Part shown: positions 5,806 to 25,973 of the stretch, piece after piece
Position numbering within the stretch: the first letter of the stretch is position 1
Layout of the letters: each line of letters begins with the position of its first letter
Assembly: GCA_913063525.1 (NCBI GenBank)
Contig: CAJXYV010000013.1
Coordinates: 1-32,573, forward strand
Length of the DNA: 32,573 nucleotides
Source of the DNA: an uncultured Verrucomicrobiota bacterium
GTDB taxonomy: Bacteria; Verrucomicrobiota; Verrucomicrobiia; Verrucomicrobiales; Akkermansiaceae
Direction: 5' to 3'
Program-made: the position numbers and the translations under genes
Notes under the pieces: generated by a model
What the model saw: only the letters and a program-made list of their open reading frames with translations
Databases searched by the model: none
What the model was told of the DNA's origin: nothing

Positions 5806-7512
5806 GTGAATCCCCCCTCGCTCAATCCCTGCCAAGGCGACACCATCGCCTACTTCTCCATGGAAATCGCCTTGGAGCCAGGAATGCCGACCTACAGCGG
5901 CGGCCTGGGAATGCTGGCGGGAGACACTGTGCGCTCCGCCGCCGATCTGCGGGTGCCGATGGTCGCCGTGACACTCGTGCACCGCAGGGGCTACTTCCGC
6001 CAGCACCTCGACCCCAGCGGTTGGCAGACGGAAGAGGAAGTGGCTTGGGAGGTCGCGAAGTTTTGTCAGGAATTGCCAGAGCGCGTGCAAGTCAGCATCG
6101 AGGGCCGCGCCGTCCACATCCGCGCGTGGCAATATATCGTCACCGGCATCAGCGGCCACGTTTTACCCATCATTCTATTAGACGCGGATCTGCCCGAGAA
6201 CGCGGATTGGGACCGCACCCTCACCCACTACCTCTACGGTGGCGACTCTCACTATCGGCTTTGCCAGGAAATCATCCTTGGCATGGGAGGCGTCCGGATG
6301 CTGCGCGCGCTGGGCTACCAGCAGGTGCGACGCTTCCATTTAAACGAGGGCCATGCAGCCCTGCTAGGCGTCGAATTGCTCGATGAACGGGCCCGCAGCT
6401 TCAATCGCGCAGTCTTCAACACGGAAGACGTGCAAGCCGTTCGCGAGCAATGTGTCTTCACCACCCACACGCCCGTCCCCGCAGGTCACGACAAGTTTCC
6501 GCTCGACCACGTGGCGCACGTCCTCGACCGCTCGGACTTGTTCACCATGTCGGAAGTCTTCTGCTGCGCCGATGAATTAAACATGACTTACCTGGCCCTC
6601 AACCTCTGCCACTACGTCAACGGCGTGGCAAAAAAACACGCCGAAGTTTCCCGCCAGATGCTCATTCCACACGACGGACTGCATCACTATCAAATCGACT
6701 CCATCACCAATGGCGTCCACCTCGGCACCTGGACCGCCCCCTCGTTTGTCCAATTGTTCGACCGCCATATCCCCGGCTGGCGCACCGATAATGCCAGCTT
6801 GCGCAGCGCCCTGCGCATCCCGAAGGAGGAAATCTGGCGGGCGCATCAGGCCGCCAAGGCCCGCGCCATCGACGAAGTCAACCGCCGCACGAACGCCCAC
6901 TTCGACCCCGAAGTCTTCACCATCGGCTTCGCCCGCCGCGCCACTTCCTACAAGCGCGCCGACCTCATCCTCACTGATCCGGCGCGGCTGCGCGAAATCG
7001 CCACCTGCCAAGGCCGCCTGCAGATCATTTACGCCGGCAAGGCCCACCCGTGCGACGAAGCAGGCAAAAAAATCATCCAGCAAATCTACCAAATGCGCGA
7101 CAGCCTGCGGCCGGAAGTCCTCGTCGTTTACCTCGAAAACTACGATTGGGAGCTAGGCCGACTACTCACCGCCGGCGTCGACCTGTGGCTCAATACGCCT
7201 CTGCCGCCAATGGAAGCCAGCGGCACCAGCGGCATGAAAGCCGCCCTCAACGGCGTGCCCAGCCTTAGCGTGCTCGACGGCTGGTGGATAGAAGGTTGCA
7301 TCGAAGGATTCACCGGCTGGTCCATCGACGACACCGTCAAAGATCCCGCCGCCTCGCTCTACCACCAACTCGAAAACGTCATCCTCCCGCTCTATCATTA
7401 CGAGCGCAACCACTTCATCCGAGTGATGCGCCACGCCATCGCCCTCAACGCCTCCCACTTCAACACCCAGCGCATGGTTGGGGAATACACGGTCAAAGCG
7501 TACTTTGAGTGA
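5806..7512 (+). CDS. glgP: Alpha-glucan phosphorylase (GT35, short form, about 568 aa)
   Basis: GTG start. [27 protein letters not shown]...[17 protein letters not shown]...[10 protein letters not shown]...[25 protein letters not shown]. Confidence 0.93.
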
Positions 7513-7536: not shown

Positions 7537-9930
7537 TCACTCATGCGAGCTGACTTGATAGCCCATGCTCCGATAGGCAACGAGACGCTTGCGGTGCATG
7601 TGCGCCGTGAGTGGATGTTCTGGCTCAACGTAGTCGTAAATGCGAACTTCATCTTTGCCGGCACATTCACGATGGAGGCGGCCGGCGTATTGAACCAAGC
7701 GCCCCTTGAAAGACAGCGGAAGCGTGAGGAATAAAGTGTTTAGCTGCGGCAAATCAAATCCTTCGCCGAGAAGTGACGAAGTAGCGAAAAGAACAAATCC
7801 TTCACCGACGAGGCAATGTGCATCGATATTTTCCATAATCGCCGTACGTTGCTTTTTGCCCATGGCACCATCGATTCTATGGATTCGCGCGGCGAGACTC
7901 GGATTCACCGCTTTGAGCAAGCTCTCAAGAATTTCTAAATGTTCCCTCCGGTCGCTTAACACTGCACAGTTGCGACCTTCGGCTAGAGCGGCGGCAACAT
8001 CTGCGTTAATCTGCTCGTTTCTCCCCGTGTGATTGACTAGAAGATCCCAAACTTGGTGAATCGGCATTCGTGCTTCTTCAGCTGGGAGACCAAGGTGAAT
8101 ATCGCGAACGATAAGTTTACGAAGTATTCCAGATTCGTCTTTTGAATCCATCCGGTGATGGATCGGCCCGCATTGGAGGAACAATATCTTCTGAAGTCCA
8201 TCTTTCCGAATCGGCGTGGCTGTGAGCCCCAGAAAAAATCGACAAGGACAAACCTTCATCACCGCCTCAAACGACGCTGCCGGAATATGGTGACACTCAT
8301 CGACGATGACCTGAGTGAAGGGCTCCAATAATGAAGGGGGATTCGGGGCTTTGGCGAGTGTTTGCACCATACCAACCACGACTCCACACGATAACGAATC
8401 AGACTTCTGGCCAAGAATGCCAATTTCTTTGGGATCCAATCCCAGAAAATCCCCCAGTCGCAAGCGCCATTGCTCAAGCAGTGGCTTACGGTGAACGAGG
8501 ACGAGCGTGGAAACATTGCGAGCAGCAATGATGGCACAACCCATAACCGTTTTCCCCGCTCCGGGCGGAGCAATCAAAACACCATCCTCATGTTTCAACA
8601 TCGCATCCACCGCGGTTTGTTGAGATGGACTCAATTCACCTTGAAATTTGAAAGAGCCCATCCTTTCCGCGGGACGGGCGTCTTCGATGAGCATGCGACC
8701 ACCCGCTTTTCGACACAAATCTAGCGCCGCTTGCGTGACACCCCGTGGCAGCATCAGCCGATTCGGGTGAATCTCTCCGCAGAAAATGAACCGAGGAATA
8801 TTATACATCCCAAGGCGAAGTCGCTGTTTCTCAAAAAACACCGGATTCGCCAAAGTCGCCAAACGTTTAAGCGCCGCAATCAGGCAAGCAGGAAGCTCTG
8901 AAGTAGAGATTTCCAATTGAGCATACCGTATCGCCTTGGCCGTTCCGGTGAATATACCCCGCGTGATTGCCTCAGGAATCACATCCAGCGCACGATCTTC
9001 GTATCGCACAAATATATCTTGTCCCGATTCCCCCTCCGTTACTGCGGGAGGCAAAGTGAAATCGACGAGATCATTGAGCTGCTCTCGGCTGATTCTTTGA
9101 AGTTCGGAAAGATAGCTCCACTGATCCCGGTGCGGTAAAAATGATTCGTCCACGAATACCGAGTTACCCAGTTCTCTGGGCTTTGCCTGCAAGGGAAGGG
9201 CAATCAAATTTCCAAATCCACCAGCAGGCAACTTGTCTTGATTCGGAAAAAAACGATCATATGACGACAATTTCATCACTGGGCGAAATGATGAGGCCTT
9301 TGCCACAATCAGAGTGCCGAGCCGCCTAGCCATAAGAGCCGGTATTGGCTCACCAAAGAAGATCCATGCGTGGCCACCATCCCCAGAGCGAGAGCGTTCA
9401 ATCGCAGGATCAACCCCCAACTCCTTCGCCGCAGCACAATAAGCCAGAACATCTTCACGCCAACCTTCTCCATCAAAATCGGCAGCAAGGAAGATACACG
9501 AGTCATCCTCACGAATGGCGTAAGTCCCGATCGTTTGCTTGCCCGTTAGATGATCACGCGCAACCAATTCATCAAACGGCGAGAATGCTTGGTGGAGACA
9601 TTGAGAACACTTCACCTGCGGTTTATCACAAATCCCCCTGACCCATTCATTCCGGCAAACGGGAGAATACCCCTTGCGACCTGATTTCGGATTTTCCCAA
9701 AGCCTTGGAAAAACGTCGCCACGGCAACGGAAAAGAGACAGAAACAAGCGGATCTTTTCCGATGGCGGCATCGGGAATGAGACGATACCCGCTTCCTCTG
9801 AAATGCTTGAGGTTACCAGCCTTTCACGTTCGTTGATCAGCGCCTCTCGCTTCTGTTCGAGCTCTAGGAGTTCCACGTCAATCTGGATCAGTCGGTTCAA
9901 CGACCGATTGATATGACTGAAAAACGGCAA
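7537..9930 (-). CDS. TOTE-type archaeo-eukaryotic primase (AEP) domain fused to an SF2 DEAD/DEAH-family helicase
   Basis: N-terminal Cys cluster VCRNEWVRGICDKPQVKCSQC; AEP-like LAADFDGEGW, ERSRSGDGGHAWIFF, SYDRFFPNQDKLPAGGFGNLIALPLQ. Helicase Walker A APPGAGKT, DECH box VIVDECHH, GLTATP, and motif VI QYAGRLHRE. Confidence 0.92.
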   Translation of the reverse strand: MPFFSHINRSLNRLIQIDVELLELEQKREALINERERLVTSSISEEAGIVSFPMPPSEKIRLFLSLFRCRGDVFPRLWENPKSGRKGYSPVCRNEWVRGICDKPQVKCSQCLHQAFSPFDELVARDHLTGKQTIGTYAIREDDSCIFLAADFDGEGWREDVLAYCAAAKELGVDPAIERSRSGDGGHAWIFFGEPIPALMARRLGTLIVAKASSFRPVMKLSSYDRFFPNQDKLPAGGFGNLIALPLQAKPRELGNSVFVDESFLPHRDQWSYLSELQRISREQLNDLVDFTLPPAVTEGESGQDIFVRYEDRALDVIPEAITRGIFTGTAKAIRYAQLEISTSELPACLIAALKRLATLANPVFFEKQRLRLGMYNIPRFIFCGEIHPNRLMLPRGVTQAALDLCRKAGGRMLIEDARPAERMGSFKFQGELSPSQQTAVDAMLKHEDGVLIAPPGAGKTVMGCAIIAARNVSTLVLVHRKPLLEQWRLRLGDFLGLDPKEIGILGQKSDSLSCGVVVGMVQTLAKAPNPPSLLEPFTQVIVDECHHIPAASFEAVMKVCPCRFFLGLTATPIRKDGLQKILFLQCGPIHHRMDSKDESGILRKLIVRDIHLGLPAEEARMPIHQVWDLLVNHTGRNEQINADVAAALAEGRNCAVLSDRREHLEILESLLKAVNPSLAARIHRIDGAMGKKQRTAIMENIDAHCLVGEGFVLFATSSLLGEGFDLPQLNTLFLTLPLSFKGRLVQYAGRLHRECAGKDEVRIYDYVEPEHPLTAHMHRKRLVAYRSMGYQVSSHE

Positions 9931-9981
9931 AAGTCGATCGTGGAAATTGCCACTGCGCTTTTAGACTACTGAATAACCGGA

Positions 9982-10437
9982 CTACGCGCGAAGGAGCAGT
10001 CTCAAGTCGAGACCTTGATCGCGGTGTGCAGCAAAATCCCCATCAAGCGCGACCAGAGTCAATTTCCCGCAGACTGCAAAAGCCGCTAGGTAGGCGTCCA
10101 TCCAAACCTTGGGAGATGCCGAATCAAGGTCCGCAAATTCGTGCCAGAGGTCGCGGGTCCCAGCAGGTTCGGCATCTATCATCCGCACATTGGAATGAGC
10201 ATGGCAGTCGCTGAGTATTTTCAGAGCGTCACGATTACTAACTGGAGCACAATCGTAACGCCGATGCAGTGCTGGCGTGGTGAGGAGACGCAGACACGAT
10301 TGTTCGGTAGCACGGCAGAAGCATGCAGGCGCGTCGGGCGTCGCCTGCGAAAAGAAATCGTTTGCTAGCTCATGGTGATCGTGCCCCTCAAAAGCAGCCG
10401 CAATCCAGAGGTTCGTATCAATCAAGAATCCCGGCAT
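9982..10437 (-). CDS. vapC: PIN-domain toxin (VapC-like)
   Basis: MPGFLIDTNLWIAAAFEGHDHHELANDFF...KVWMDAYLAAFAVCGKLTLVALDGDFAAH. PIN acidic residues at IDTN, DAYLAA and LDGDF. Confidence 0.9.
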   Translation of the reverse strand: MPGFLIDTNLWIAAAFEGHDHHELANDFFSQATPDAPACFCRATEQSCLRLLTTPALHRRYDCAPVSNRDALKILSDCHAHSNVRMIDAEPAGTRDLWHEFADLDSASPKVWMDAYLAAFAVCGKLTLVALDGDFAAHRDQGLDLRLLLRA

Positions 10438-10723
10438 GGCGAAGGTCTTCCTCTTCGTTGGCTTGCTGGATAATTTTCAGGCTCTCATCCAGAGTCGGTG
10501 GGACAAAACCCGGCGACTTGCGCGAGCGGATGACAGGAAGACCGGTTCTGGGATGAACCCCAAGCTGCGGCTTTTGGCTAGGCATGGTAGATGTGACTGT
10601 CCGAACATCCAAACCACAACGAAGCAAATCAGCAACAAGATCCGCCACCCTTCGACCTTCGCTGGAGGCACGGGCCTTCACGTCCCGAATCAATGGCTCC
10701 GGCAGATCAAAGATCGTTTTCAT
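10418..10723 (-). CDS. RHH-type antitoxin (VapB/FitA-like)
   Basis: ATG at 10723: MKTIFDLPEPLIRDVKARASSEGRRVADLVADLLRCGLD. Overlaps the vapC start by 20 nt. The track start at 11020 crosses the divergent promoter region and is unlikely. Confidence 0.85.
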   Translation of the reverse strand: MKTIFDLPEPLIRDVKARASSEGRRVADLVADLLRCGLDVRTVTSTMPSQKPQLGVHPRTGLPVIRSRKSPGFVPPTLDESLKIIQQANEEEDLRHAGILD

Positions 10724-25402: not shown

Positions 25403-25819
25403 TCAATAATCGATTCGAGTTAGGGCTTGAGCTGCGGTGATGGCGCGAATGCCAAGCGATTCAGCGCCTCTGAAATCCTTGAGGTTGTTCGTAATAATGT
25501 AGGGGGTACCCGCGGCAAGCGCCAATTCTAACACCATGTCGTCGTCACTATCGGGTAGGTGGGGCCGCCAACTAAAGTAAATCTGCTGCTGACGAGCCAA
25601 GACGCACAAACCATTAATGATAGCCATGATCTGAGCACTGCTAAGCGCTGGCAGCATCCCAGGACGCAACGCCACTTCTTCGTACTCCATCGCCAACGGA
25701 ACCGAAAGAGCGATGCGGATGCTACCCGATCGGATGAGACGCAGTACCCGGTGGCTCGCTCCAACACGGGAACGAAGCGCCGAAATGAGAATATTTGTGT
25801 CGAGCACTGCAAACACCAC
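25403..25819 (-). CDS. PIN-domain toxin component (PilT-like)
   Basis: VVFAVLDTNILISALRSRVGASHRVL...HLPDSDDDMVLELALAAGTPYIITNNLKDF. GTG start at 25819 or 25816; the ATG at 25870 is also possible. Confidence 0.88.
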   Translation of the reverse strand: MVFAVLDTNILISALRSRVGASHRVLRLIRSGSIRIALSVPLAMEYEEVALRPGMLPALSSAQIMAIINGLCVLARQQQIYFSWRPHLPDSDDDMVLELALAAGTPYIITNNLKDFRGAESLGIRAITAAQALTRIDY

Positions 25820-25973
25820 GGTATTATTGACGATACCACCGAAAATGCAAGTCAGGACTACAAAAACCAACTTCCTTCATCCGCACATCCCCGTCCTTGC
25901 GCGGGTGGCGGGTTCTGTGTTTCCCTCGCCGCGACGCCGCTATTCCGTCTGCTCACTTTCTACTTCTTCCAAA

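Follow-up and report, generated by a model that had tools for sequence, protein, structure and literature searches.

The window analysed here is a stretch of 32,573 nucleotides from an uncultured Verrucomicrobiota bacterium of the family Akkermansiaceae. Its minus strand carries three tandem open reading frames (10723-10418, 10437-9982 and 9930-7537), and the end of the first gene overlaps the start of the second by 20 nt. This layout is the one given in a preliminary description of the same DNA, which took the three genes for an RHH antitoxin, a PIN nuclease and a TOTE-type primase-helicase that may form one defence unit. The features of the locus are as follows.

10418..10723, minus strand: RHH antitoxin (VapB-like), 101 aa, recognised by its homology to the RHH antitoxins found next to 21 of 23 PIN homologues (Pfam RHH_5 gives an E-value of just 0.078, which is not significant).
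9982..10437, minus strand: PIN-domain toxin of the VapC family, 151 aa (TIGR00028, E 1.7e-26, above the cut-off; PF01850, E 1.1e-6).
9901..9981, minus strand: intergenic gap of 81 nt, with the likely TTG start of the helicase at 9900 according to the alignment of homologues (51 nt if the start is TTG 9930).
7537..9900, minus strand: short-form AEP-TOTE primase joined to an SF2 (XPB/UvsW-like) helicase, about 787 aa, without C-terminal nuclease (PF22548, E 2.8e-90, ResIII and Helicase_C; AlphaFold2 model; PDB fold matches).

Homologues of the helicase align from residue 11 of the open reading frame, which corresponds to TTG 9900. Translation therefore probably starts there, and the gap that follows the PIN gene is probably 81 nt; the 51 bp of the preliminary description apply only if TTG 9930 is used. 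The Pfam matches establish the AEP domain and the SF2 helicase that had been recognised by eye. The AEP residues DFD, SGxGxH and YDR are intact in the window protein, as are the helicase motifs GKT, DECH, TAT and GRLHR, and nearly all of these residues are invariant among 78 homologues. The protein terminates just past Helicase_C, so that the reported lack of a C-terminal nuclease holds. The AlphaFold2 model has a mean pLDDT of 87.4, and the best PDB fold matches of the helicase core are T4 UvsW and XPB. No relative of the helicase was found in viral contigs, and the matches in phage records concern the helicase domain only, none of them covering 80% of the query.

The PIN protein passes the NCBIfam cut-off for TIGR00028, the VapC-type Mtu_PIN family, and the acidic residues D7, E45, D113 and D131/D133 can be read from its sequence, which agrees with its earlier assignment. 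The first gene keeps the RHH label despite its weak Pfam score, since a homologous antitoxin adjoins nearly all PIN homologues. PDB searches gave no meaningful match with the antitoxin and no match with the PIN protein. In the genome (3.0 Mb searched), the general PIN model has 28 matches and Mtu_PIN has 9, mostly in the same genes; about 30 PIN genes are present, two of which are closely related to that of the window. Across 195 genomes of the bacterial family, we found 23 further homologues of the window PIN, none of which has an AEP-helicase within 1.5 kb. The window pair is also absent beside related helicases. Judged by its homologues, it is an ordinary, autonomous vapBC with predicted toxin-antitoxin activity. 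The preliminary description had proposed a candidate operon of the RHH-PIN pair and the helicase, to be refuted if homologous helicases in related genomes lacked the pair; taken literally, this is what the comparison shows, and a conserved operon of these three genes is rejected. In another genome of the genus, an RHH antitoxin resembling that of the window is located at L302:4967-4767 (-), near an AEP-helicase of the longer form described below, on the opposite strand and downstream of it.

The composition of the block departs from that of its surroundings: GC3 is 0.50, 0.55 and 0.53 in the three genes and 0.70-0.79 in the larger flanking genes, which is why the block looks acquired from elsewhere. 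On one side lies an alpha-glucan phosphorylase gene (5806-7512, +), convergent with the helicase gene, with 24 bp between the stop codons; on the other, from about 10.87 kb, a moxR-DUF58-vWA-BatD operon. The latter is kept in relatives of the genus and family, and the DNA upstream of moxR is unlike in each of them. No consensus sigma-70 promoter was found between 7400 and 11100, and the PIN-helicase gap showed neither a terminator-like nor a sigma-70-like site. The window contains no tRNA gene, and no flanking repeats were found around the block.

The phosphorylase gene, tried as a syntenic anchor, failed in that role, since its homologues in the family are only about 35% identical, unlike the rest of the region; it was possibly acquired separately. 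A second PIN gene of the window (25403-25870, -; PIN_3, E 9e-19), also of low GC3 (0.56), sits between the region of a SurA-like protein gene and the methionyl-tRNA synthetase gene.

Among the relatives of the window helicase, the gene immediately upstream changes from one locus to the next. VapBC pairs occupy this position in L002 (69% identity to the window helicase) and in L317 (66%), where restriction-modification genes follow downstream. Counting the window, three of the six non-redundant relatives that share at least 62% identity have a vapBC pair, and the three PIN proteins share no similarity beyond the fold. PIN genes are absent from all 88 control loci. With a chance per gene of 0.7-3%, three vapBC in six close relatives have a binomial p of about 7e-6 to 5e-4. 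The upstream gene encodes HipA in L224/L047 (54-55%), Fic in L227 (56%), in L091 and in the orthologous pair (84%) L048 and L094, and an AbiEii-like protein in L049. Other upstream neighbours are an AAA_21 ATPase with an HNH-like protein in L320 (54%), the same type of ATPase with a DUF4276 protein in L321 (52%), a 105-aa protein with a DUF2283 protein in L225, a small pair of no recognised family in L007 (Bdellovibrionaceae), and a 382-aa protein matching no known family in L316 (70%). In L003 and L004 (62-68%), no toxin is recognisable immediately upstream. The junctions are often tight: the PIN stop codon overlaps the TTG start of the helicase in L317, the overlap takes the form ATGA in L321 and amounts to 1 nt between toxin and helicase in L048, and the gap is 5 in L091. 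The gap of the window is looser than in many relatives. Clustering of the neighbours gave no single conserved partner, just recurrent classes.

Two of these neighbours can be noted in their own right. The ATPase and HNH-like pair at L320:6576-8404 (-) resembles Septu. A protein family that begins with MSEYQ (276-416 aa, no convincing Pfam match) occurs three times beside AEP-helicases, at L316:4744-5889, L051:8785-10032 (-) and L081 about 8301-9131 (-), and is a possible novel effector.

We extended the comparison to homologues drawn from the phylum, class and order and from GTDB contigs, whose neighbourhoods were retrieved, and scanned the same-strand open reading frames immediately upstream with Pfam (E<=1e-3). 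The helicases come in two forms, a short one (about 770-840 aa) like that of the window and a longer one with a C-terminal DUF559 nuclease, which makes up one clade of the tree save for a single long-branch sequence (L090). In Verrucomicrobiota, a toxin or antitoxin gene lies immediately upstream of the short form and on the same strand in 17/42 loci (AbiEii 7, Fic 4, HipA 2, PIN 2, HicB 1, AbiEi_2 1), and about 60% of the loci have no recognised toxin there. Among DUF559-fused helicases, only 1/56 has a toxin or antitoxin gene in this position (0/34, then 1/22, a HipA, in a second set). On the downstream side of the short form, a toxin is present in 3-4/42 loci; as a control in the same class, hsdR has an upstream Fic in 2/29 loci, hsdS often occupying the slot. 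With loci counted as independent, the short-form upstream count differs from that of the long form with a Fisher p of about 7e-7, from that of the downstream side with 6e-4 to 2e-3 and from that of hsdR with 2e-3. These values are indicative, since kin loci are not fully independent, some of the open reading frames were curated by hand and the neighbourhoods had been viewed before the toxin categories were set.

The DNA of kin loci was then compared and searched for flanking repeats and tRNA genes. Several toxin-helicase pairs, and some long-form helicases, turn out to be compact insertions at tRNA genes, bounded by direct repeats.

L047, 4112-8630 (4519 bp, helicase orientation): HipA and helicase; the 3' end of tRNA-Val is duplicated, 39 nt.
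L244, 4017-8456 (4440 bp, helicase orientation): AbiEi-AbiEii and helicase; tRNA-Gly, 30 nt.
L243, 5008 bp: tRNA-Gly, 32 nt.
L059, 5249 bp: DUF559-type helicase with an NTase pair; tRNA-Met, 57 nt.
L076, 4829 bp: tRNA-Leu, 31 nt.
L063, 3656 bp: DUF559-type helicase alone; tRNA-Met, 33 nt.

Among the relatives, L047/L224, L243 and L244 are tRNA insertions with direct repeats; the window copy shows no such ends. No integrase-like open reading frame was recognised inside the tRNA-bounded units. One of them has an uninterrupted counterpart: the joined flanks of the HipA unit in genome G550 match a continuous site in G978, of the same genus (92% over 519 nt), which shows that the HipA toxin and the helicase were inserted together, and precisely. 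The helicase regions of L243 and L244 are 91% identical in DNA and the ends of the two units are similar; the toxin modules in between differ.

Outside the phylum, homologues carried by plasmids keep this arrangement with other toxins upstream. On an Arcobacter plasmid, an open reading frame in the AbiEi position and AbiEii precede the helicase (gap 6), and on an Acinetobacter plasmid HigB and HigA do so (gap 25). Many plasmid homologues are instead accompanied by Tni-type or Tn3-type transposon genes, and others by an overlapping partner of about 183 aa that belongs to no known family. On plasmids of Massilia, Cupriavidus and Azotobacter (L283:3813-4361, L284:3795-4358, L285:3873-4418), the overlap of this protein with the helicase start is 8 nt. 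In Alphaproteobacteria (L008-L014 and L286, the latter with annotated TniB and TniQ), the AEP-helicase lies directly 3' of Tni-type transposition genes, as transposon cargo would.

The anatomy of the locus, the intact motifs, the unrelated toxins that recur independently in one slot and the co-insertion at tRNA genes in some relatives suggest that loci of this type are compact plug-in units serving defence or survival. We propose, at slightly less than an even chance, that the window is one case of a unit in which a nuclease-less AEP-TOTE-helicase is combined with a toxin module that is swapped between loci; it has the short helicase and, directly upstream on the same strand, the toxin module. 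The toxin module would stand in for the nuclease, DUF559, that the longer sisters carry as a fusion. The helicase would engage invading or aberrantly replicating DNA, and the toxin would act as a separate trans effector, arresting the cell by RNA cleavage once the antitoxin disappears or repression of the operon is lifted. The antitoxin may repress the shared operon. An exchangeable effector acting in trans would predict toxins upstream of the short helicases and not of those fused to DUF559, and the way in which the fused nuclease and the upstream toxin complement each other is the strongest hint that toxin and helicase cooperate. That the toxin is an effector controlled by the helicase, or cooperating with it, is what we infer from this pattern, and the defence function is likewise putative. 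The earlier idea that the PIN nuclease is the trans effector of one unit is not borne out for the window pair, and finds support in its broader version, that of a toxin in the slot of the short form. Overall, the interpretation of the preliminary description is partly supported at the level of sequence.

A different explanation would be that the AEP-helicase is a replication protein, or the cargo of a tiny mobile element, which the toxin-antitoxin module merely stabilises, with no mechanistic link between the two; we regard it as somewhat improbable. The 4.4-5.2 kb units with direct repeats of 30-57 nt hold little besides toxin and helicase, and this explanation accounts for them as well as partner swapping does, including the lack of a recognised integrase-like open reading frame and the one empty site. 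Homologues do occur in Tni-type and Tn3-type transposons and on plasmids, and AEP-helicases are replication proteins of other mobile elements (PMC5862659). However, no origin was identified, stabilisation leaves unexplained why the toxin lies upstream, on the same strand and often overlapping, and toxins are near absent from the DUF559-fused sisters although these are tRNA-inserted too (L059, L063, L076).

It may also be that, in a genome rich in toxins, an ordinary vapBC landed by chance in front of an AEP-helicase, the two keeping separate functions and promoters. The number of PIN genes in the genome, two of them close to that of the window, and the lack of an AEP-helicase beside all 23 homologous PINs speak in favour of such an event; since this vapBC family is autonomous and a promoter would fit in the 81-nt gap, it keeps some probability for the window. 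We nevertheless find it unlikely, given that three of six close relatives carry vapBC pairs unrelated to one another, that toxins are generally enriched upstream of short forms and that low GC3 is common to all three window genes. Less probable still is that helicases and toxin modules simply gather in defence islands or variable sites, as neighbours and not as operons. Toxins are indeed also found farther off or downstream (L005, L006, L072, L083), restriction-modification genes follow L317, and hsdR, a typical island gene, sometimes has an upstream Fic; but the same-strand upstream bias is strong, start and stop codons overlap, and the minimal toxin-helicase units leave out other island genes.

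A bolder version of the partner-swapping proposal, which we consider rather unlikely, is that a class of minimal elements of 3-5 kb, lacking an integrase and inserting at tRNA genes, is built around the short AEP-TOTE helicases as its constant core, and that any toxin placed in the slot (VapC, HipA, Fic, AbiEii, HigB, others) is licensed or triggered by the helicase, as a separate effector in replacement of the nuclease fused in the sisters. If the coupling is true, one conserved primase-helicase would serve chemically unrelated toxins (an RNase, a kinase, an AMPylase, a nucleotidyltransferase), and the triggering of toxin-antitoxin modules in conflicts with phages or plasmids becomes testable by module swaps. 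Minimal tRNA-inserted units would show that toxin-based defence can travel without a recombinase of its own. We found no description of partner swapping between toxins and AEP-helicases in the open literature searched, which does not include the 2022 review that defines TOTE.

The TOTE conflict systems of Aravind et al. 2022, as cited in PMC12458937, combine an effector with TPR, OB and TBP partners. The window helicase has the AEP domain named for TOTE in Pfam (PF22548), and to this extent the earlier label stands, but it has no TPR, OB/cold-shock or TBP partner nearby and the slot is taken by ordinary toxin modules. No TBP or cold-shock gene was detected among the larger window open reading frames scanned, the immediate neighbours are the alpha-glucan phosphorylase and MoxR genes, and the only TPRs in the scanned frames are those of a BatD-like protein encoded in the bat operon. 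Since these partners are absent, we do not file the locus as a TOTE system despite the name of the domain. Likewise, the AEP domain matches the CRISPR PrimPol model of PADLOC, but no cas gene is present among the scanned window open reading frames. XPB/Rad25 and T4 UvsW, the top structural matches of the helicase core, are SF2 helicases without an AEP domain, with roles in repair, transcription or recombination. The AEP primases of mobile elements (PMC5862659) are also primase-helicase fusions carried by mobile DNA; unlike the present one, those described are for the most part PrimPol-PV1 replication proteins, joined to other helicases, and a replication role is putative here.

The RHH-PIN pair itself has the traits of a type II VapBC (Mtu_PIN, TIGR00028), with a VapC-type PIN protein that has its catalytic acidic residues, a cognate antitoxin directly upstream that overlaps the toxin gene, and many autonomous homologues in the bacterial family; it differs in being followed by an AEP-helicase, a layout seen in 0/23 relatives of its PIN. 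The long AEP-TOTE-helicase-DUF559 sisters share an AEP and SF2 core that is about 40% identical, and are sometimes tRNA-inserted, but theirs is a fused C-terminal nuclease with hardly any upstream toxin. In partner-swapping toxin-antitoxin networks (PMC10440598), as here, a conserved gene has next to it a fixed slot in which unrelated toxins replace one another; in those networks the constant partner is an antitoxin domain, in the present case a primase-helicase.
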